A DNA stretch of 64,000 nt from contig NZ_DAOUQB010000008.1 of NCBI RefSeq assembly GCF_030625865.1, positions 1 to 64,000 of the forward strand, in the 5' to 3' direction. Below, piece after piece: positions 49,014-64,000 of this stretch. The notes beneath the pieces were generated by a model that saw nothing but the letters and a program-made list of their open reading frames with translations, ran no database searches and was not told where the DNA came from. Positions within the stretch are counted from its first letter, which is position 1. Each line of letters begins with the position of its first letter. The translations under genes and the position numbers were made by a program. The stretch is from Anaerotignum sp. Lineage in GTDB: Bacteria > Bacillota > Clostridia > Lachnospirales > Anaerotignaceae.

Positions 49014-50693
49014 TCACGCTGTTCTTTTACCTTCAGCATCGTTCGATTTTTCTAACTTAACTGCCTGTTTCATTTCTCCAAGTGAGATGTATCCGACAAA
49101 CTTATAGTAAATATCCACCCTCTGGCATTTGCTACCATCTGAGTTTTCAGTTTTCTCATGCACTACAATACGGTCGATTAATTCGTTGAGTATCTTCGTA
49201 TTAAGTTCTTTTACATCTGTATAACTTTCTATTAGTTTAACAAAGTTTTCAGCATTTGTAAATATTTCGTCGGCTTTTTCAATCTCAGAGAGGAGCAATT
49301 TACTTTGCTCTTGTAATCGTTCCTGTTCATTTTCATAATCTTTTGACATGGTTGCATACCGCTCATCGCTGATTTTATCCAATGCGTTATCCTCATAGAG
49401 CTTATTTAAAATCTTATCCAATTCACTTAATCGCTTCTCTATGGAAGTAAGTTCACGTCTATACTTGGCAACTTCTTTCTTTTGCTTTTCAGTTTTAAGG
49501 GCAATTAGACCCTCCATATATTTTTGTGAAGCTTTCTTTGCAATTTGAGCATTACGTTGAATATCCTCAAGTACAAGCTGATTCAACGTTTTCCAACCGA
49601 TAGCATGGGATGTACAACGCTGTTTACCGTAGTTTTTATAAACCCAGCAGGAAAAACCAGTGTATTTGCCCTTGTGCCTGTCGTAGGAAACATTCAGAGA
49701 AGAACCACAATCTGAGCATTTTACTAGCCCGGCAAAATATTGAATTTCTTCTTTAGCAACTGTTTCCCGGCGTCTAGACTGCATTAACTTTTGCACAGTA
49801 TCCCATGTTTGCTGGGTGATGAGTGGCTCGTGCATATTCTCCACCAGAATCCAGTCTTCCTCTCCTGTTTTAACTCGTGTTTTATCATAGAATCCTTTAA
49901 TTTTAGTTCTGCCAAACACGATATGTCCTAAATATACGGGGTTTGAGATAATGGAACGGATGGAGGTTGCATGCCAATCAAAGGGCTGTCTCCAGTAATC
50001 ACTCTTATAAAAATCGGGATTGTTTCGGTTGAAGTATGCCTGAGGATTTAAGATATTACGTTCTCGGAGAATCTTCGTGATACGAACATAGCCGATACCT
50101 TCGCTGAACATTTTAAAGATTTCTCTTACCACTTCAGCCGCTTCAGTATCTACAATTAAATGGTGACGATCGCTAGGATCTTTTAAGTAACCAAAAGGTG
50201 CATGACTACCAAGGTATTTACCATCCATTGCTCTGGTGCGATGACCTACCTTAGTTTTGCGTGAACAGTCACGAACATACATAGAATTTATAACATTAGT
50301 AATTGGCATTAAAATATTATCCACACCATTTAGGGTGTCAATATTTTCTCCCAGTGCCATAAATCGTACGCTCTTTTCCTCAAAGTAATGTTCGATGTAC
50401 AGACCCATTTGAGCGTATTCTCTACCAAATCGGGAGAGGTCTTTAACTATTACCATGTTGACCTTTCCATCGTCAATTGCCTTTATCATTCGCTTAAATG
50501 CAGGCCGCTCAAAATTAGTTCCGCTGAAGCCATCGTCACAGAAGCAGTCAAAAATTTCATATCCGTTTGCCTTTGCATAACTTGTAAGCAATGTTTTTTG
50601 TGTTTGTATACTGCCACTTTCGCCAACTTGCCCATCATCTTGACTGAGCCTGCAATAAAGTGCAGCCATATATTTATCTTGCTTCGCTAGCAT
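49014..50693 (-). CDS. Large serine recombinase (TnpX-like)
   Basis: A 559-residue large serine recombinase. The resolvase domain has catalytic Ser in ALYCRLSQDDG and the SRFGREYAQMG helix. A recombinase domain (GYVRITKILRERNILNP, DWHATSIRSIISNPVYLG) and a zinc ribbon (KCSDCGSSLN, then GFSCWVYKNYGKQRC) follow, with a Glu/Lys-rich coiled coil near 405-470. It catalyses excision and insertion of Clostridia-type transposons such as Tn4451 relatives. It lies at the edge of its element, next to the tRNA fragment. Confidence 0.93.
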   Translation of the reverse strand: MLAKQDKYMAALYCRLSQDDGQVGESGSIQTQKTLLTSYAKANGYEIFDCFCDDGFSGTNFERPAFKRMIKAIDDGKVNMVIVKDLSRFGREYAQMGLYIEHYFEEKSVRFMALGENIDTLNGVDNILMPITNVINSMYVRDCSRKTKVGHRTRAMDGKYLGSHAPFGYLKDPSDRHHLIVDTEAAEVVREIFKMFSEGIGYVRITKILRERNILNPQAYFNRNNPDFYKSDYWRQPFDWHATSIRSIISNPVYLGHIVFGRTKIKGFYDKTRVKTGEEDWILVENMHEPLITQQTWDTVQKLMQSRRRETVAKEEIQYFAGLVKCSDCGSSLNVSYDRHKGKYTGFSCWVYKNYGKQRCTSHAIGWKTLNQLVLEDIQRNAQIAKKASQKYMEGLIALKTEKQKKEVAKYRRELTSIEKRLSELDKILNKLYEDNALDKISDERYATMSKDYENEQERLQEQSKLLLSEIEKADEIFTNAENFVKLIESYTDVKELNTKILNELIDRIVVHEKTENSDGSKCQRVDIYYKFVGYISLGEMKQAVKLEKSNDAEGKRTA

Positions 50694-53679: not shown

Positions 53680-54792
53680 ATGATTGATGGAACAAAGAGA
53701 ACAAACGAAAAAATAAATACCATCCAAGAATTCACCTTGATGTTTTGGCAAAACCAAATATTAATAGATAAGATTAAAATTCCTTTGGGACAGTGCACGA
53801 CCGATATTTTAAATTTAAGCGATGACTATTTAACCCAGATGAATAACAGTCGCAATGAACTTGCTTTGGCTACCCAAACATTATTTAATCCAAACATAAA
53901 TAAAGACCTTGCAAATGTTACTGAAATACAGAACAAGTTAAACAAGGTTTTAGACTTGGTACTTGCTTTACCACCATTTCATTATTTAATTGATAAAGAC
54001 TTCGGTCACTCCATGCTTATAGATATTTTTAATGTTCAGCCAAATGAATTTCTGATATTAACAAATAGAGAAAGCCATCAGGGTCAGGTTCTAAATTACT
54101 TAATTTTTAAGCTGATTTCTATTATTGATGAAACCATAGCCTTTAAACAGTATATTTCGGCAATGCTTGAACTCTATTTTGAAAAACTAAAAAAACGTAA
54201 TGAAGAGCATTACGCTGTTGGAGTTTACAGCTTTTTCGCAAATACAAAGCTTTTAAATGAAATCCGTATAACCTTGCCACCTTTGCCAAGCTTTGATTTT
54301 TCTCAAGCAAGAGAAGTAGGCATAGAATATGCTCCTATGCACAACCCCGATAACAAAAAACAATATTTGATCGCTGAGCGCATTGTTTTTAAAAGCATGG
54401 GCGGATTTTTGCACTTAGATTTCTTTCGAGGGTTAATGAAAGGGCATTGTCCCCGCCAATGTCATAACTGCGGTAAATACTTTTTGTTGCTTTCCGGGCA
54501 TAACACTTGTTATTGTGCAAATGTTGCACCCAACCAGAAAAAAGAAGGTGATACAAAAACTTGTCGGGATATTGGCGCCCATATTAAAGAAACACAGAAA
54601 AAAGAAAAGCGTACCCCGGCACAGCAGGAGTACGCTAAGGTTTATAACCGATTGAAAACAAGAAAGAATCGTGGCAAGCTATCCATTGATGAATGGAACA
54701 AGCAAGTGGCACAAGCGATTTCTTATATGGAACAAAATATGCGAGGAGAACTGTCTGATTTTGAATTTAAGGAGATAATGAAAAAGTTTTGA
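53680..54792 (+). CDS. DUF6076-like zinc-finger protein
   Basis: A 370-residue protein of mostly helical, charged sequence with a Cys cluster near residues 257-285 (CPRQCHNCGKYFLLLSGH, then TCYC and a later TCRDIG). A basic C-terminal helix region with KRTPAQQEYAKVYNRLKTRK follows. The layout is that of CGNR-like/DUF6076 proteins common in Clostridia mobile elements. The zinc ribbon and basic tail suggest nucleic-acid binding. It is the only rightward gene in this stretch and has the direct repeats in its promoter. Confidence 0.65.
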   Translation: MIDGTKRTNEKINTIQEFTLMFWQNQILIDKIKIPLGQCTTDILNLSDDYLTQMNNSRNELALATQTLFNPNINKDLANVTEIQNKLNKVLDLVLALPPFHYLIDKDFGHSMLIDIFNVQPNEFLILTNRESHQGQVLNYLIFKLISIIDETIAFKQYISAMLELYFEKLKKRNEEHYAVGVYSFFANTKLLNEIRITLPPLPSFDFSQAREVGIEYAPMHNPDNKKQYLIAERIVFKSMGGFLHLDFFRGLMKGHCPRQCHNCGKYFLLLSGHNTCYCANVAPNQKKEGDTKTCRDIGAHIKETQKKEKRTPAQQEYAKVYNRLKTRKNRGKLSIDEWNKQVAQAISYMEQNMRGELSDFEFKEIMKKF

Positions 54793-55917: not shown

Positions 55918-56076
55918 CTCAAGGGAAACCAAATCAAGGCAAGTCCATTCCCCCCCAAAACCTGATTTCCACCCTCACTTTCCCCTAAGATTTCTAAATA
56001 AAACATATTCCTCTATGGTTGAAATGACAACCAATCCTTAAAATTAACTGGACAATAGGACATTTCCTACTGTCAA
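55918..56076 (+). repeat. Left flanking repeat of the type I RM cassette
   Basis: It begins CTCAAGGGAAA and contains TATGGTTGAAATGACAACCAAT (as TATGGTTG...CAACCAAT, 56014-56035). It ends in the palindrome GACAATAGGA-CATT-TCCTACTGTC (56051-56074, 9 of 10 pairs), only 36 bp beyond the hsdR stop. The same ordered blocks recur in the same orientation at 63068-63253. The rest of 55701-55917 has no gene. Confidence 0.65.
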
Positions 56077-56111: not shown

Positions 56112-59100
56112 TTATACTGCCATAACCCTATCAGTCCAAAGTTCACATTGGGTCATAACTGTCTGAACAGCATCTTCCATTCCCTCAGGCGGGTATTTAT
56201 GTTTCTTTAATAACTTTTTAATGAGCATACGCATTCTGGCTCTTGCAGAATCTTTCTTTTGCCAGTCAATGGTTTTGTTCTTTTTCAGTGTATCAGTCAA
56301 TTCCTTTGTAATAGCAATAAGTTCTGCATTTTCATAGAAATCCTTAATTGCTTGTGGTTTTGTCAGCGCATCATAAAATGCTAACTCATCCTCGGATAAA
56401 CCGAGGGAATCTCCTTCAGCCTTTGCGGCTGCTATTTGTTTTGCCAAATTCATTAATTCTTCTATAACTTCTTCATTAGTAAGCATCCCATTGAGGTAAG
56501 CATTCATAGCACGCTGAATAATATCTGAAAACTTCTCTGACTTAACCACATTGGTTCTGCGATAAACTTGTATCTGTTCTGCGATAAGTTTTTTAAGTAG
56601 TTCAACCGCTAAATTTCTTTCCTTCATATTTGCAACTTCTTCTAAGAACTTAGGGTCGAATAGAGAAAACTCTTGCTGAACGTCTGAAAATAGATTGATA
56701 ACTCCGTCGCTTTGAATGCTCTGTTTCAATAATTCGTTGATATGAGCGTTCATCTCCGGTAGTGAAATTTTCTTACCTGTGCCTTGATTTGTCAGTCTCA
56801 TAACGAGAACACGGACAGATTCAAAAAAGGCTGCTTCCAGACGCATAGATTTTTCTACCAATGACGAACAAAGAGATAATGCCTGGTGTAGCATAAGTGC
56901 TTCCTTGACAAAAATATCTTTCTCCGCTTCTTTTTCACGAGCAATAATAAAGTTCACTGCACCACTAATGGTCTTTGCTCGCTCTAAATTCGTTCCATCC
57001 ATAAACTTTGAATAGTCAAATCCATGAAACATATCCTGACAAACGGATAGTTTTTCAAGGAACTTTGGATAAGCAACCTTGCTAACATCCGTATCACCGT
57101 AATTCTTTTTATCCCGCTTAGTGTAGTCATTCATGGCTTGCTTTAGGGCAGAGGCTATACCAACATAGTCTACAACCAAGCCGCCCTCTTTATCACCAAA
57201 TACACGGTTTACTCTTGCTATGGCCTGCATAAGGTTATGACCGCTCATAGGCTTGTACACATACATAGTAGCAAGAGAAGGAACGTCAAACCCTGTCAAC
57301 CACATATCCACCACAATGGCTATTTTGAGTGGACTGCTGTTGTCCTTAAACTTCTTGGCAAGTTCGTCTTTATGAGATTTATTACCGATAATCTCTCGCC
57401 AGTCTTCTGGGTCTTTATTACTAGATGTCATAACCACAGCAATTTTCTCTGTCCAGTCGGGGTGAATGGCAAGGATTTTTCTATATATCTGAAGTGCTAT
57501 ACCTCTTGAATAAGCGACTATCATTGCCTTACCTGTTAACTCATTGGCTCTGTAATTCTCGTAGTGGTCAAGGATATCTGCCACCAACGAATCCAAGGTA
57601 GAATCCGCCCCTAATATGGCTTCCATTTTACCTAGTGTTTGCTTGCTTTTTTGAATAACATCAGAATCAGCATTTTCAGCCATAAGGTCATATTCACTAT
57701 CAATCAGTTGTAGGGTTTCTTTGTCTAGGTTAAGTTTAATGACACGGCTTTCGTAGTAAACAGGTCTTGTCGCTCCGTCCTCTACCGCTTGGGTCATATC
57801 ATAAACGTCTATGTAATCACCAAATACTTCCCGAGTGCTGCGGTCTTTTGATGAAATGGGGGTCCCTGTGAATCCGATATAAGTAGCATTTGGTAGGCTG
57901 TTTCTGATAATACGAGCCGTTCCAATTACCACCTTTGCTTCTTCTTCGCCTTGTTCATTAGTCACCAGTTTGACCTTTTCATCCAAGCCATACTGTCCTC
58001 TGTGTGCCTCGTCCGCCATGACGATAATATTTCTGCGCTTGGATAGTGGCTCTTGGGATTCTTCAAACTTCTGCATAGTGGTGAAGAATATACCGTTTGC
58101 TTTTCTTCCTGCAAGTAGGGTCTTCAAATGCTCTCTGCTTTGGGCTTGTACTGGGTCTTGACGCAGAAAATCCTTGCACTTTGCAAACTGCCCAAACAGT
58201 TGGTCATCCAAGTCATTTCTATCTGTCAGCACAACAATAGTGGGGCTATCCAATGCCTCTTGCAGCAGATGTGCATAGAACACCATAGACAAGGATTTAC
58301 CGCTACCTTGTGTATGCCAGAACACACCACCTTTTCCGTCTGTCACTGTTGCATGTTTGGTTGATTCAACGGCTTTTTTTACCGCAAAATACTGGTGGTA
58401 TCCTGCTAATATCTTAATCATAGAAGAACCGTCATTTGAAAAACAGATAAAATTCTTGATTAAATCGAGTAACCGCTCTTTTGAAAACATGCCTTCAAAA
58501 AACGTGTCAAACTGGGCATACTGCGTGTTTTCATAATCCCCGTCTTTGGTTTTCCACTCCATAAACCTATCTTCACCCGAGGTGATAGTGCCAGACTTTG
58601 AGGTCAGTTGGTCGCTCAACACACAGACAACATTATAGATAAACATAGAAGGTATCTCATGCATATAGTTGCGTAGTTGCAAATACGCCTCTGACGCATC
58701 CGTTTCTTCACGAGATGGGGATTTTAACTCTACTAAAACCACAGGCAGACCATTTAAGAACAAAATAACATCAGGTCTTTTCTCACTGTTCTCAACAAAG
58801 GTCCATTGGTTGGTAATGATAAAGGAATTGTTGTCTATGTTCTCAAAATCCACCAGATAGATAAGCATCGAGCGTTCTTCACCTTTTTCAAGATAGCGAA
58901 CCTCTACGCCATTTTGGAGATAGTCCATAAACACAGCGTTTTTCTGTACAAGCTCGCCATTTTCAAAGTTCTTAATCTTGAAGATAGCGTCCTGTATTGC
59001 GTCATAGGGTGCCCCTTTGTTAATCCGTCTCAGGCTTTCTTCCAACACTTCATCATAAAGAGGGCTTGCAAAATCACGCTCCACATTAGGGCCATAAGCA

Positions 59101-59174
59101 TAAGTGTAGCCAAGGTCACGGAATAATTCTAATATTGAGTTTTCGTAATCTGCCTCGGTGTAAAATGCTGACAT
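56112..59174 (-). CDS. hsdR: Type I restriction enzyme, R subunit
   Basis: A 1020-residue restriction and translocation subunit. It has an N-terminal PD-(D/E)xK nuclease (PDVILFLNGLP, then VVLVELKSP near residue 150), a superfamily 2 helicase motor with Walker A FWHTQGSGKSLSMVF (about 285), the DEAH box MADEAHRGQYG, TGTPI, and motif VI region MQAIARVNRVFG. A C-terminal helical domain binds the methylase core. It starts 12 bp after the DUF3644-like gene as the last gene of the operon and appears intact. Confidence 0.96.
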   Translation of the reverse strand: MSAFYTEADYENSILELFRDLGYTYAYGPNVERDFASPLYDEVLEESLRRINKGAPYDAIQDAIFKIKNFENGELVQKNAVFMDYLQNGVEVRYLEKGEERSMLIYLVDFENIDNNSFIITNQWTFVENSEKRPDVILFLNGLPVVLVELKSPSREETDASEAYLQLRNYMHEIPSMFIYNVVCVLSDQLTSKSGTITSGEDRFMEWKTKDGDYENTQYAQFDTFFEGMFSKERLLDLIKNFICFSNDGSSMIKILAGYHQYFAVKKAVESTKHATVTDGKGGVFWHTQGSGKSLSMVFYAHLLQEALDSPTIVVLTDRNDLDDQLFGQFAKCKDFLRQDPVQAQSREHLKTLLAGRKANGIFFTTMQKFEESQEPLSKRRNIIVMADEAHRGQYGLDEKVKLVTNEQGEEEAKVVIGTARIIRNSLPNATYIGFTGTPISSKDRSTREVFGDYIDVYDMTQAVEDGATRPVYYESRVIKLNLDKETLQLIDSEYDLMAENADSDVIQKSKQTLGKMEAILGADSTLDSLVADILDHYENYRANELTGKAMIVAYSRGIALQIYRKILAIHPDWTEKIAVVMTSSNKDPEDWREIIGNKSHKDELAKKFKDNSSPLKIAIVVDMWLTGFDVPSLATMYVYKPMSGHNLMQAIARVNRVFGDKEGGLVVDYVGIASALKQAMNDYTKRDKKNYGDTDVSKVAYPKFLEKLSVCQDMFHGFDYSKFMDGTNLERAKTISGAVNFIIAREKEAEKDIFVKEALMLHQALSLCSSLVEKSMRLEAAFFESVRVLVMRLTNQGTGKKISLPEMNAHINELLKQSIQSDGVINLFSDVQQEFSLFDPKFLEEVANMKERNLAVELLKKLIAEQIQVYRRTNVVKSEKFSDIIQRAMNAYLNGMLTNEEVIEELMNLAKQIAAAKAEGDSLGLSEDELAFYDALTKPQAIKDFYENAELIAITKELTDTLKKNKTIDWQKKDSARARMRMLIKKLLKKHKYPPEGMEDAVQTVMTQCELWTDRVMAV

Positions 59175-59186
59175 ATCAAATCCCCC

Positions 59187-60158
59187 CTATATAAATACAG
59201 TGCGATTCTCTTCGCAATATTTTAGAACATATTGTAGCCAAGAATCATACCAATACCATGTATTAGCCACCATTACCCCATAACCATTGCCTTTATCTTT
59301 TGCGTTTTTAGATTTCCAAAGTACGGTATGCTTTGTCATTGAGAATTTACTATATCCCTTCGATTTAACATTCGCAACAATTTGACTCGGCAAATACTTT
59401 GTTCGCTCAGTTTCCTTAATTAACGCATAGGTTTTCTCTAATCCCTCAGCCAAAGGTGAATCACTTTTAATAAACTCAACCACTTTATCCGCTTGACCTT
59501 TCCTGTTAACGTTTACAGGAAGAAAAACAACCCTGTATGCATACCGAGAATTCTTTAACGAATCTTCTGAAAGTTCATTTTCAAAATCCACTATAAAATT
59601 TTGGATATTGGTAGTTATATGAGTATTGACTCTTAATTCTTGCTGTTGCTCAGGTGATAGTGGTGAAAATTGAATGGCTAAGGACAGTTCTTTACTCAGA
59701 TTGTATTTATCTCCAAATAGATTGGTAATGTAATAATCAAAATTGATTGCACAGGCTTGGAGTTTAGCACTAAGGTACTCATCAATTTTATCTGTCATTT
59801 GGTGCTCTATTTCGTGTCGTATGCCTATCAAAAACCGCAAATTTGCAATAGTATCTTTATCAAGTGGGCATTCATCACAATTAAGGCAACGTTCTAGTTC
59901 CCAGTGCTTATAAGCACCGTATTTCGTTTTATCATAATTTTTCTTTTTTCCGTTTGAGTGATAATACCTGTAATCTATTTTCTTATCTCGATAATACGCA
60001 TGTAATAAATAAGTCCAACCTATGACGGCAAGAGAAATAAAGGACTCTGCCTTAAATGTGACCTGTGGATTATTATAAATTTGCACTGCTGCAAGAACCG
60101 CTTCTCTAGATTTCTTTACAAGTTCATTCTTAACAGATTTTATACGTCTTTTAGCCAC
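59187..60158 (-). CDS. DUF3644-like protein inside the type I RM operon
   Basis: A 323-residue protein. The N-terminal half (about 1-150) is helical with IGWTYLLHAYYRDK, a CLNCDECP pair and the motif RHEIEHQM near residue 115, matching the R-x4-H pattern of HEPN ribonucleases. The C-terminal part resembles a DNA-binding unit (SKFSMTKHTVLWK). I identify it as DUF3644-like. It starts at a GTG after AAAGGAGGG, 24 bp after hsdS, and runs straight into hsdR. A defence or RM-guard role is inferred from the motif and position. Confidence 0.7.
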   Translation of the reverse strand: MAKRRIKSVKNELVKKSREAVLAAVQIYNNPQVTFKAESFISLAVIGWTYLLHAYYRDKKIDYRYYHSNGKKKNYDKTKYGAYKHWELERCLNCDECPLDKDTIANLRFLIGIRHEIEHQMTDKIDEYLSAKLQACAINFDYYITNLFGDKYNLSKELSLAIQFSPLSPEQQQELRVNTHITTNIQNFIVDFENELSEDSLKNSRYAYRVVFLPVNVNRKGQADKVVEFIKSDSPLAEGLEKTYALIKETERTKYLPSQIVANVKSKGYSKFSMTKHTVLWKSKNAKDKGNGYGVMVANTWYWYDSWLQYVLKYCEENRTVFI

Positions 60159-60182: not shown

Positions 60183-61388
60183 TTATATTTGTATATCAGA
60201 CACGTCTATCTCGCCAGACATGAGTTTTGGGAGTAGGGTGTCACGAAGTGAAGATAGTCTAAAATTCTCAATCTTATTAGATATAATCATTTCATAAATG
60301 GGTTCTAGAAGTCCCCCAATTTTAGCATAATCTCTTTCCGACGGAATTAAGACTTCGGCTTTTTTCAACTCGTCCCGTTTTATGTGTCCCATAGTTGTTG
60401 CTTTATCAGCGGCAACAGCAATAAATCGCTCAAGGTGAAATTCAGTCCAAGAATAATAAAACCACTTGTCATACTTATTTGATGTCACTTTAAATAAATG
60501 CTGATTTAGCCCACAAGTTCCACCACACCAAAAATCTACAAGCAAACTTCCTGACCAAGAGAAAATAACGTCACCATTATTGATAATATATTCCGATTTA
60601 ATACTTGAAGAGCATAAGTCACTACTATCATCACATGAGCCTCGCCTTAATTCTTTAATCTTCAAAACAGGCATTCCAACCTCATTATCAAGCGGACGAT
60701 ATTTTTGCATAGCCAATCCATTCAAATAGTCGGCAATATCCAAAAGACACCCCTGTTCCCAATCTTCAGGGCAAACACCACCCCATGGCTCAAAATCCAC
60801 AAACCAAGACTTGAAAATAGCCTGTGCCTGCTGCTCCAAGTTTTCATTTATCTTGTTGTTGAGTTCAATTTTTTCATCAAAGGCAGAGATAATTGAGGAT
60901 ATTTTTTGCTGTGTTTCTATATTTGGAATTGGTACGCTTAAAATGCGAAGTGTTTTCATTGGAATTGTTGGTTGTCCGCTACCTACTATATGACTTGTCA
61001 TCTGTTGATAAAATAAATAGCTACGAACATAGGCGTATAAATAGTATGCATCGACAAGTTCAGCATTAGGCGTTATTTTGCATATATTGGGAGCTAAATG
61101 ATATTTGTCGTTTTCAGAAATAATTGCACAATCGCCATAGCCATTTCCTGTATAGGTTAATAAGATGTCATTAATATATAACTTGCTACGCACTAAACTA
61201 TCAGATACATTCCGATGTATTCTTTTTATATCTGTCAAATCTAGTTTGCCGTTACGAAGATTTAATGCTCTTAGCGCAATTATTTCTCCTTCTTTTGTAT
61301 ATTCAATGTATTTTGTAAATTCAAAGCCAGCCAGTTTAGTAACCTCTGCAATATCACCTAAATCTTTTGTTGTCCACTTAGACCTCAT
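60183..61388 (-). CDS. hsdS: Type I restriction enzyme, specificity subunit
   Basis: A 401-residue S subunit with two target-recognition domains. The first spans about 5-150 and the second about 200-345, each followed by a conserved helix (NIETQQKISSIISAFDEKIE and the C-terminal AKIGGLLEPIYEMIISNKIE region, ending in LRDTLLPKLMSGEIDV). It chooses the DNA site for HsdM and HsdR. The ATG at 61388 has GGGGGCG 7 nt upstream and overlaps hsdM by 11 bp. Confidence 0.93.
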   Translation of the reverse strand: MRSKWTTKDLGDIAEVTKLAGFEFTKYIEYTKEGEIIALRALNLRNGKLDLTDIKRIHRNVSDSLVRSKLYINDILLTYTGNGYGDCAIISENDKYHLAPNICKITPNAELVDAYYLYAYVRSYLFYQQMTSHIVGSGQPTIPMKTLRILSVPIPNIETQQKISSIISAFDEKIELNNKINENLEQQAQAIFKSWFVDFEPWGGVCPEDWEQGCLLDIADYLNGLAMQKYRPLDNEVGMPVLKIKELRRGSCDDSSDLCSSSIKSEYIINNGDVIFSWSGSLLVDFWCGGTCGLNQHLFKVTSNKYDKWFYYSWTEFHLERFIAVAADKATTMGHIKRDELKKAEVLIPSERDYAKIGGLLEPIYEMIISNKIENFRLSSLRDTLLPKLMSGEIDVSDIQI

Positions 61389-62880
61389 ACCCAATCGCCC
61401 CCAGTTTCTCTCTTATCTGCTGCTCTAGGGCATGGGATTTACTAAACATTTCAGACAGTTCAGCGATAAGGCGGGGCATTTTCTCCTCAAATGGTTCTCC
61501 GTCTTCCTCTTGTTCCTCTATGCCCACATAGCGTCCAGGGGTTAGGATATAGTCCTGCTTTGCAATATCGGCAGTTTCCACCACAGCACAAAATCCCTTT
61601 ACATCCTCCAAAGTTCCTTCTTGGAATGTCGTAAAGGTGTCTGCCAAGGTGTTAATATCTTCTTCAGTAAAATCTCTGTGTTTACGGTCTACCATATAGC
61701 CCATTTTGCGAGCATCAATAAATAAGGTCTTTCCCTTTTGCTGCTTGTTCTTACTGATAAACCATAAGGTAACAGGAATAGTTACACTATAAAAAAGTTG
61801 AGTAGGCATGGCAACAATGCCCTCTACCAAGTCGTCCTCAATAATACGCTTGCGAATTTCACCCTCACCGCTAGTTTGCGAGGACAAAGCACCATTTGCC
61901 AGCACAAGACCTATTTTACCATTAGGGCCTAAGTGGTGAATCATATGTTGAATCCATGCGTAGTTGGCATTACCAGAAGGTGGTGTACCATATTTCCAAC
62001 GCACGTCATCCTTTAATTTATCTTGTCCCCAGTTAGAGAGGTTAAAGGGCGGGTTAGCCATAATAAAATCAGCCTTTAAGGACTTGTGCAGGTCATTAAA
62101 GAAAGTATCTGCTTGATATGGCCCAAAGTCTGCGTCAATTCCACGAATCGCCATATTCATTTTTGCCATTTTCCAAGTGTCAGCATTGGATTCTTGACCA
62201 TAGACAGAGATGCGATTGCGATTTCCGTTATGTGCTTGCAGAAACTTGACTGACTGAACAAACATACCACCAGAGCCACAGCAAGGGTCATATACTCGGC
62301 AATCCTCAAAAGGCTTTAGGATAGATACAATGGTTTTTACAATACTTGCAGGGGTGTAGAACTCACCGCCTTTAACACCTTCATAAGCGGCAAATTGACC
62401 GATGCAGTATTCATAGGTTCTACCAAGTAAATCTTGGCTTTCTTCAGTACCGTCCATATCCATATTAGTAAACAGGTCAACAACATCACCCAAAACACGC
62501 TTGTCCAAATCTGGGCTTGCATAGTTCTTAGGTAATACATTTTTAAGTGTTTTATTTTCAGCCTCAATGGCTCTCATTGCGTTGTCAATGACAGTTCCAA
62601 TTTCAGGGGTATGAGCAGCAGCGGAAATGTAAGACCAACGTGCTTCTTCCGGAACAAAGAAAATATTATCTTCTGCATACGCGTCTCTGTCATCCTCAAA
62701 GCCGTCCCCCTCAGCAACTAGAACTTCATATTTCTTCTCAAATGCACTAGAGATATAGCGTAGGAAGATAAGTCCTACAATTACTTTTCTATATTCAGCC
62801 GCCGGGATATGCCCCCACAGTACGCAGGCAGCGTCCCAAATTTGCTTTTCAAATCCTATTTTAATGCTGTTATCAGCCAT
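61378..62880 (-). CDS. hsdM: Type I restriction enzyme, methylase subunit
   Basis: A 500-residue N6-adenine methyltransferase. It has an N-terminal helical HsdM domain, SAM motif VYDPCCGSGGMFVQS (about 195), catalytic motif IMANPPFNLSNWG, and a C-terminal region ending in a coiled coil that contacts HsdS. GGGGG lies 7 nt before the ATG. It heads the operon behind a clear promoter. Confidence 0.96.
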   Translation of the reverse strand: MADNSIKIGFEKQIWDAACVLWGHIPAAEYRKVIVGLIFLRYISSAFEKKYEVLVAEGDGFEDDRDAYAEDNIFFVPEEARWSYISAAAHTPEIGTVIDNAMRAIEAENKTLKNVLPKNYASPDLDKRVLGDVVDLFTNMDMDGTEESQDLLGRTYEYCIGQFAAYEGVKGGEFYTPASIVKTIVSILKPFEDCRVYDPCCGSGGMFVQSVKFLQAHNGNRNRISVYGQESNADTWKMAKMNMAIRGIDADFGPYQADTFFNDLHKSLKADFIMANPPFNLSNWGQDKLKDDVRWKYGTPPSGNANYAWIQHMIHHLGPNGKIGLVLANGALSSQTSGEGEIRKRIIEDDLVEGIVAMPTQLFYSVTIPVTLWFISKNKQQKGKTLFIDARKMGYMVDRKHRDFTEEDINTLADTFTTFQEGTLEDVKGFCAVVETADIAKQDYILTPGRYVGIEEQEEDGEPFEEKMPRLIAELSEMFSKSHALEQQIREKLGAIGYEV

Positions 62881-63067: not shown

Positions 63068-63253
63068 CTCAAGGGAAAAGAACTCTTGGGAAGGGGATTT
63101 TTGACCCTGAATTGACTGATTTTTCCCTTCAAATTCCCTTGAGATTTTCAAAAACGTATTTTTCAGTATGGTTGAAACTACAACCAATTCACCAAATTAA
63201 TCCATGAACATAAATACAAAACCCCTTGACAATAGGACGTTTCCTACTGTCAA
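63068..63253 (+). repeat. Right flanking repeat of the type I RM cassette
   Basis: Same ordered blocks as 55918-56076: CTCAAGGGAAA (63068-63078), TATGGTTGAAAC...CAACCAATT (63167-63190) and the palindrome GACAATAGGA-CGTT-TCCTACTGTC (63228-63251). Here the palindrome is extended by CCCCTT/AAGGGG to a 16-position stem with 15 pairs. It lies upstream of the hsdM promoter. The remaining gap to 63413 shows no gene. Confidence 0.65.
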
Positions 63254-63413: not shown

Positions 63414-64000
63414 TTAAATTAAAAAATCATATATATTGGTTTGAGTTCTGTCTACCAATATTTTAGGGTCTGTAAGGACTGAATACAATGTTTCCTTCAC
63501 TAGCTTATAGTCTTCTGCTTGAAACTTATAATAATCAGTATCATTATCGGCCTCTCCAATTTGCAGATGAACTCTATTTCTTAATTTTCTTAAAGCACTT
63601 ATTTTGGAGAAATACTCACTTTTAATTTCAAGTAGTCCTTTATCTTTTATCTTATTTATAATACTTTTAAAATCCATTTCCTTTTCAGATTTACTCCCTT
63701 TTTCAAATATATGTATCTCCATTTTTCGTTTTTGTTCTTCTTCTGAGTATTCAGTAGTTTTAACTATGCCAATATTATTCCATCCATCTGTCATAGACCA
63801 CTGCCCACTCTTTTTTAATACTTGATAAAATATAGCCTCGACAATTGACATAGCGGTTATGATATAAGTTTTATATATTAGACATTTGACAATGCTATGA
63901 AAGTCTATTTCATTAATTTGTAATTGTAGATATTGAAGATATTGCAAATTATATGAAATGTTATTCTTTATATGAGTGTCTATATCCTCTAAAATCCCTT
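63414..64000 (-). CDS. HEPN-like hypothetical protein, partial (start beyond right edge)
   Basis: The frame is open from the right edge (GILEDIDTHIKNN...) to a stop at 63414, so the visible part is about 194 codons and the true start is probably outside. The sequence is helical and Lys/Glu-rich, with ISALRKLRNRVHLQIGEAD near the end, matching the R-x(4-6)-H motif of HEPN proteins, and GWNNIGIVKTTEY before it. HEPN proteins are often RNases in defence or toxin systems. Its place beside the RM cassette fits that, but no partner is visible. Confidence 0.6.
   Translation of the reverse strand, partial: GILEDIDTHIKNNISYNLQYLQYLQLQINEIDFHSIVKCLIYKTYIITAMSIVEAIFYQVLKKSGQWSMTDGWNNIGIVKTTEYSEEEQKRKMEIHIFEKGSKSEKEMDFKSIINKIKDKGLLEIKSEYFSKISALRKLRNRVHLQIGEADNDTDYYKFQAEDYKLVKETLYSVLTDPKILVDRTQTNIYDFLI

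Follow-up and report, generated by a model that had tools for sequence, protein, structure and literature searches.

A gene of the DUF3644 family is embedded between hsdS and hsdR in a type I restriction-modification (R-M) operon of Anaerotignum sp., in the window analysed here, which is the whole stretch of 64,000 nucleotides at positions 1 to 64,000 of contig NZ_DAOUQB010000008.1. Its product is predicted to adopt an HEPN fold and carries an R-x4-H motif that is invariant among its aligned relatives, and placement of the family in hsd operons is recurrent. The gene probably encodes an HEPN-type endoribonuclease effector of the DUF3644/PDC-S19 family, which would act as a toxin plugged into the slot between hsdS and hsdR and provide a second line of defence. 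It belongs to an already catalogued family (Pfam DUF3644, PADLOC candidate PDC-S19), of which it is a good but ordinary example, and with four genes in about 7 kb and one small effector the operon represents a compact test case.

The gene is located at positions 59,187 to 60,158 on the minus strand and codes for 323 amino acids from a GTG start, the stop codon being included in these coordinates, while the plus strand of the same interval contains many stops. The operon order is hsdM, hsdS, DUF3644 gene, hsdR, all open frames on the minus strand according to the ORF list and Pfam. The type I methyltransferase gene hsdM (61,378 to 62,880) was recognised by N6_Mtase (E 1.3e-108) and HsdM_N, the specificity subunit gene hsdS (60,183 to 61,394) by Methylase_S in two stretches (E 8.5e-33), and the restriction subunit gene hsdR (56,112 to 59,174) by HSDR_N, SWI2_SNF2 and T1RH-like_C, with TIGR00348 above its cut-off. 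Only 24 bp separate the end of hsdS (60,183) from the start of the DUF3644 gene (60,158), and 12 bp its stop (59,187) from the start of hsdR (59,174). Shine-Dalgarno-like stretches were seen by eye ahead of the DUF3644 gene (AAAGGAGGG) and ahead of hsdR (GGGGGG). The location and both gaps confirm what the sequence-only reading had described, which gave no strand. Matches of hsdS and hsdM to MADS models are weak and fall far below the cut-offs, and a MADS identity was rejected for this reason.

The protein matches PF12358 (DUF3644) at residues 12-196 (E 7.8e-56; 189 bits against a curated cut-off of 27.6), and shares with that family the R-x4-H motif and the occurrence in an R-M operon. Its match to the PADLOC model PDLC04948 of PDC-S19, a candidate defence family, is nearly full-length (residues 3-319 of 323, E 1.8e-155), so that a single family model spans the protein; the original preprint on the PDCs is reportedly that of Payne (2024, bioRxiv). 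The window gene is the sole DUF3644 match in the 2.75-Mb genome and the family is uncommon, being above the Pfam cut-off in eight of 398 genomes of the same phylum, the window's own genome counted. As far as the available sections of the papers on them go, the PDCs were drawn from a guilt-by-embedding screen inside other defence systems and mostly await validation (PMC12988326, PMC10855318). DUF3644 was listed among new HEPN families in 2013, and the same paper, in its available sections, lists the overlapping EC042_2821 group in R-M operons and reports at least 16 R-M-linked HEPN clades (PMC3710099). A literature search, whose scope leaves out preprints and many subscription papers, found DUF3644 named in that paper only and did not find PDC-S19 by name.

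Predicted fold and conserved motif

The AlphaFold2 model of the protein, built on 78 aligned sequences (alignment A1, which excludes L016, L019 and L049), is of middling quality, with a mean pLDDT of 72.6 and a pTM of 0.57; residues 160-250 are poorly modelled, whereas the C-terminal domain is confident. An HEPN bundle is predicted at residues 9-148 (59,715 to 60,134, minus strand), with long helices at 9-29, 36-58, 101-120 and 126-148, and RHEIEH (residues 114-119; 59,802 to 59,819, minus strand) at the end of the third long helix marks the predicted active site on the basis of model and conservation. When Foldseek candidates were re-aligned with VIA-align, the best 12 of the 50 rows listed were all HEPN proteins (Z 8.1-9.8), although helical bundles can score such Z values without kinship. 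The best is 2hsb (Z 9.8, rmsd 2.6, 120 residues aligned), with HepT toxins at about 9.3 and Csm6 at 8.8. Six of these 12 rows say HEPN in their titles and two HepT; the other four, 7bxo, 5yep, Csm6 and 1ufb, are HEPN proteins as well. AbiV scored Z 6.7 only, level with a designed protein, and MtlR and YggD stand low among the rows at Z 5.1. By Foldseek alone the top PDB match is again the HEPN protein 2hsb (E 0.32, probability 0.98), with no match at E 0.001 for either the full-length or the C-terminal model. Sequence searches of the PDB were without a significant match, phmmer giving nothing usable and the profile search a best E of 0.54. Because unrelated helical bundles can reach similar scores, the HEPN call rests on the uniformity of the list together with the motif, and on prediction the window protein is assigned the HEPN fold.

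Residues R114, H115, E116, I117, E118 and H119 are identical in all 78 aligned rows. RHEIEH is also present in 80 of 80 fetched close relatives, a count that is biased since HEIEHQMT, one of the six seed peptides of the genome scan, covers the motif. The test was consequently repeated on relatives found independently of the motif, namely 17 loci obtained through the Pfam profile, HsdR neighbourhood and whole-protein tblastn, of which 15 gave an alignable DUF3644 protein and two (L010 and L011, both below the Pfam cut-off) did not. The arginine and histidine are kept in 15 of these 15 proteins, down to matches of 13 bits, with H, N or D following the arginine. A single R-x4-H proves nothing, as shuffled copies of the window protein contain it by composition in 27% of cases (R[NHDK]-x3-H in 7%), and it is the family-wide invariance that constitutes evidence. 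The suggestion of the sequence-only reading that RHEIEH fits the HEPN motif withstood both of the checks it had named, conservation of R and H among homologues and a four-helix HEPN bundle in the predicted fold, the latter at the level of structure prediction.

The C-terminal domain (residues 250-323; 59,190 to 59,411, minus strand) is strongly conserved, with W281, W301, W303, Y304 and W307 present in at least 75 of the 78 sequences. Its modelled topology is helix-helix-wing-helix, weakly resembling a MerR-type winged helix. In a separate model of residues 197-323, based on 70 sequences (alignment A3, which takes in 70 of 78 slices), pLDDT exceeds 90 over the last 70 residues. This model is matched best by HiNmlR, a MerR-type regulator in complex with DNA (5d90; rmsd 1.9, 57 residues aligned) at Z 7.6, which is below the level at which VIA-align advises trust, followed by Xrn1 (7.0, rmsd 5.8) and SoxR (6.4); with the full-length model the C-terminal match is 5c8d (Z 6.1). 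It is a reasonable but weak inference that the domain is winged-helix-like and possibly a nucleic-acid-binding sensor. Proteins of the EC042_2821 group are described, in the available part of PMC3710099, with wHTH, REase and Zn-ribbon fusions, whereas only the winged-helix-like C-terminus was seen in the window protein; the Pfam search for an REase fusion returned only the DUF3644 domain, residues 160-250 being the poorly modelled part.

Genomic settings of the family

A scan of genome contigs yielded 178 relatives, and the best 80 of these, from bacteria and archaea, were kept (51-74% identity). The survey of hsd operons suggested by the sequence-only reading gave 39 loci of the 80 in which same-strand hsd genes lie no more than six genes from the DUF3644 gene, which may be an undercount because 14 of the 33 loci classed as 'other' lie on contigs too short to tell; eight are of the BREX type and 19 are found elsewhere. 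Three loci with hsd-like genes on the opposite strand only (L039, L049 and L058) were counted as 'other', and L034 was counted as type I though it falls within the BREX clade of the tree. Within four genes, the DUF3644 gene shares its strand with HsdS-cluster genes in 35 of 35 cases, HsdR-cluster genes in 36 of 37 and HsdM-cluster genes in 27 of 28. The DUF3644 gene follows immediately after hsdS in 22 of the 39 type I loci and immediately precedes hsdR in 20, and 15 loci show both arrangements; gaps between hsdS and the DUF3644 gene in the 22 loci range from -29 to 32 bp, these being rough sizes since genes were called as the longest non-overlapping ORFs. Relatives of HsdR at E 1e-100 were counted in 48 of the 391 genomes of the class. 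By rough arithmetic, a 17-kb stretch picked at random from a 3-Mb genome would therefore include one less than once in 1000; other HsdR families would lift this figure, though they would not bring it to one half.

In the BREX loci the usual gene order is BrxC, PglX, a 431-aa gene, DUF3644, PglZ and BrxL. The 431-aa gene had no match in Pfam, PADLOC or the PDB and is not HsdS-like by profile; it overlaps the start of DUF3644 by 1-4 bp (L024:6694-7989, L053:3321-4619, L060:6694-7986), and by eye its D...QYK stretch could be part of a PD-(D/E)XK nuclease. Stand-alone HEPN back-up effectors have been reported next to or within BREX core genes, a placement like that seen here, and by text search the main text of that paper does not name DUF3644 (PMC12839542). 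RhuM, SoFic and HepT-like genes adjoin some of the type I copies. Of the proteins on the tree, that of L013 is the most similar to the window protein (72% identity), and no hsd gene lies within six genes of its own gene. At loci without same-strand hsd or BREX genes the neighbours are a mix of defence families, none of the 25 families listed, out of 192, having more than two members (PADLOC, 70 of 99 selected neighbours).

Matches were also found in 27 plasmid and six phage records, for five and one of which gene tables were examined. No R-M gene is listed within about 6 kb of the relatives on a 14-kb Flavobacterium plasmid (55% identity), a Phaeobacter piscinae plasmid and a Sinorhizobium plasmid, which is not proof of absence because the PLSDB gene tables are incomplete. 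A type ISP enzyme is encoded about 5 kb away on a Phaeobacter gallaeciensis plasmid, and in Gordonia pGOR1 an N-6 DNA methylase gene is followed by a hypothetical gene and then the DUF3644 gene. The more distant DUF3644 protein gp31 of the Corynebacterium phage Poushou (L165:3953-4993) adjoins the integrase, and again the listed genes up to about 6 kb away include none for R-M; such places next to an integrase often carry phage-borne defence genes. Since some plasmid and phage copies have no R-M gene among their listed neighbours, the R-M enzyme is hardly the sole or universal antitoxin of the family.

On the tree of the 80 proteins the type I label has to change 16 times, and well-supported branches force at least 11 of these changes; the average for shuffled labels is 26.9. 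The label is therefore clustered yet often exchanged, although the 16 may be an overcount owing to the short contigs classed as 'other'. The eight BREX copies fall into one well-supported group of ten, together with L034 (type I) and L038 ('other', with the BREX-type 431-aa gene), and require two changes in all. Distances among DUF3644 and HsdR proteins at 34 type I loci including the window are weakly correlated (Mantel rho 0.31, with 3 of 2000 permutations as high), and rho drops to 0.19 (42 of 2000) when the window's clade is left out; the corresponding values for HsdM at 29 loci are 0.29 (16 of 2000) and 0.26 (7 of 2000). A specific, long-lasting interface between DUF3644 and HsdR is not favoured by such weak correlation, and the co-variation fits an operon-hopping module better than a subunit in tight co-evolution.

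The gene directly upstream of hsdR was also surveyed among HsdR relatives of the same class. The tally comprises 16 loci, the window included, with readable upstream DNA and an HsdR identity of 62% or more, hsd loci below that value being excluded and L129 (no readable upstream DNA) and L159 (partial hsdR) dropped. The slot is occupied in ten of the 16, by genes from at least five families, empty in five (L127, L131, L132, L134 and L135) and ambiguous in L125; L135 has a 120-codon open frame inside its 0.5-kb gap, which was dropped by the gene caller. DUF3644 is found in three slots, those of the window, L124 (with an extra 176-aa gene before hsdR) and L130 (another subgroup), where L124 is not independent of L012 among the 80 relatives as both are apparently the same record of 17431 bases. 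Other slots hold a pEK499_p136 HEPN gene (L126), an FRG-domain PDC-S15 gene (L123), a DUF4238 gene (L104) and a PIN-domain gene (L137), while those of L128 and L133 had no clear family match and that of L136 lay outside the family scan; the contigs of L104, L123 and L128 end upstream before hsdS appears. More distant hsd loci contain RhuM (L144) and another DUF3644 (L151) in this place. The same hsdS-hsdR gap holds DarTG2 in the RptR island, which differs in being a toxin-antitoxin pair rather than a single DUF3644 gene, and the available text of that report makes no mention of DUF3644 (PMC12255303). In L126, L127 and L131 an hsdS-like piece lies on the opposite strand near a gene of 329-331 aa, as in invertible hsdS systems, and at a guess this gene codes for a recombinase.

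Proposed mode of action and alternatives

In the favoured scheme the effector would be co-produced with the type I enzyme and would stay silent in healthy uninfected cells. Phage attack would then lead to cutting of RNA at the R114/H119 site, probably by a dimer, and RNA cutting would stop the cell. The trigger, which might be DNA of phage origin, damaged DNA or an enzyme complex sitting on DNA, would probably be read in part by the protein's own winged-helix-like C-terminal domain. By analogy with EcoprrI and PrrC, the R-M enzyme may add a layer of control where both are present. Since the same family occurs in type I, BREX and other settings, a model in which the trigger is R-M-only is probably too narrow.

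A rather less probable alternative is that the protein is an autonomous, single-gene abortive-infection RNase that merely hitchhikes, the slot being a landing site for defence genes and the enzyme exerting no control over it. The Flavobacterium, Phaeobacter, Sinorhizobium and Poushou copies, the variety of slot occupants and of empty slots, and the frequent label changes with weak Mantel correlation would all fit such an arrangement. Against it, type I and BREX, which are both methylation-based, together account for 47 of the 80 loci and the hsd neighbours share the strand of the gene, which is probably more than a random defence island would show, and the number of label changes is inflated by the short contigs.

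The notion of R-M-linked HEPN RNases as back-up nucleases was already published in 2013, and the available sections of that paper propose that R-M subunits keep them inhibited until R-M is neutralised (PMC3710099). The sequence-only reading likewise took the window gene for a candidate back-up abortive-infection arm that fires when restriction fails. In its strictest form, a PrrC-like latent nuclease held on HsdMSR and released solely by anti-restriction proteins, this is a doubtful explanation of the present operon. The gene prrC sits exactly between hsdS and hsdR, and the window gene occupies the same kind of place. PrrC of EcoprrI is likewise an HEPN nuclease embedded in a type IC locus (PMC3874165, PMC12707154) and sequestered within the enzyme complex (PMC3874165), according to the available sections of these reports. 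PrrC, however, combines a C-terminal HEPN domain, as given in the part of PMC3710099 available, with an N-terminal ABC ATPase, whereas the HEPN-like bundle of the window protein is N-terminal and, along its 323 residues, Pfam gave no match to an ATPase with an E-value of 1 or lower. The weak co-variation with HsdR and HsdM and the relatives with no R-M gene listed beside them also argue against a strict dependence. The predicted fold, invariant R and H, recurrent hsd placement and defence context support the sequence-only reading in part. The BREX copies (eight of 80), locus L013, where hsd is absent from the nearest six genes, and the plasmid and phage copies speak against a strict R-M back-up role.

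A non-catalytic, MtlR-like HEPN protein binding RNA or tuning hsdR expression through its C-terminal domain is very unlikely. In its favour are the likeness of that domain to MerR-type winged helices and the presence of MtlR and YggD among the structural matches. Against it, R-x4-H is invariant here, and it is the HEPN domains without an R-x4-6H motif that are regarded as non-catalytic in the available account of PMC3710099.

The effector reading favoured above could be extended to a broader scheme, in which type I R-M and BREX share a single HEPN module that responds, through a winged-helix-like sensor of its own, to a feature found with both systems, for example foreign DNA that is unmodified or stalled, and in which the hsdS-hsdR junction is a general plug-in port for interchangeable RNA-cutting or cell-killing effectors; this is speculative and on balance improbable. 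For the effector reading itself, the operon offers a case for testing the 2013 proposal of R-M-linked HEPN proteins as back-up suicide nucleases, and DUF3644 is a clean family in which to ask if the trigger is read by the R-M enzyme, by the C-terminal domain or by both.

Flanks of the operon

Within 55,992-56,074 and 63,145-63,251 the hsd operon is bracketed by imperfect direct repeats (56 nt, 71%, 7153 bp from start to start), and the palindrome GACAGTAGGAAANGTCCTATTGTC comes after each of them. One copy of the palindrome (56,051 to 56,074, no strand assigned) lies 37 bp past the hsdR stop, and the second (63,228 to 63,251, no strand assigned) lies upstream of hsdM inside a terminator-like stem. 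With up to two mismatches allowed, the 2.75-Mb genome has no further copy, and the exact palindrome is absent from the fetched loci except for four that overlap the two window copies. The repeats and palindromes may represent a cassette boundary or a shared terminator.

Upstream of hsdM and on the same strand, a gene for 235 amino acids (63,414-64,000, continuing at L092:915-1622) contains an RNRVH motif that appears HEPN-like by eye and had no convincing match in Pfam, PADLOC or NCBIfam; a 334-aa gene without a match is located further upstream. A tRNA-Thr gene (L092:3045-3117) lies about 2.7 kb upstream of hsdM, and a large serine recombinase ORF, recognised by eye, is found about 5 kb past hsdR (49,014-50,693). 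As these two flank the operon, it may lie on an integrated island. A DUF6076 gene is encoded on the opposite strand about 1.3 kb past hsdR (53,680-54,792).
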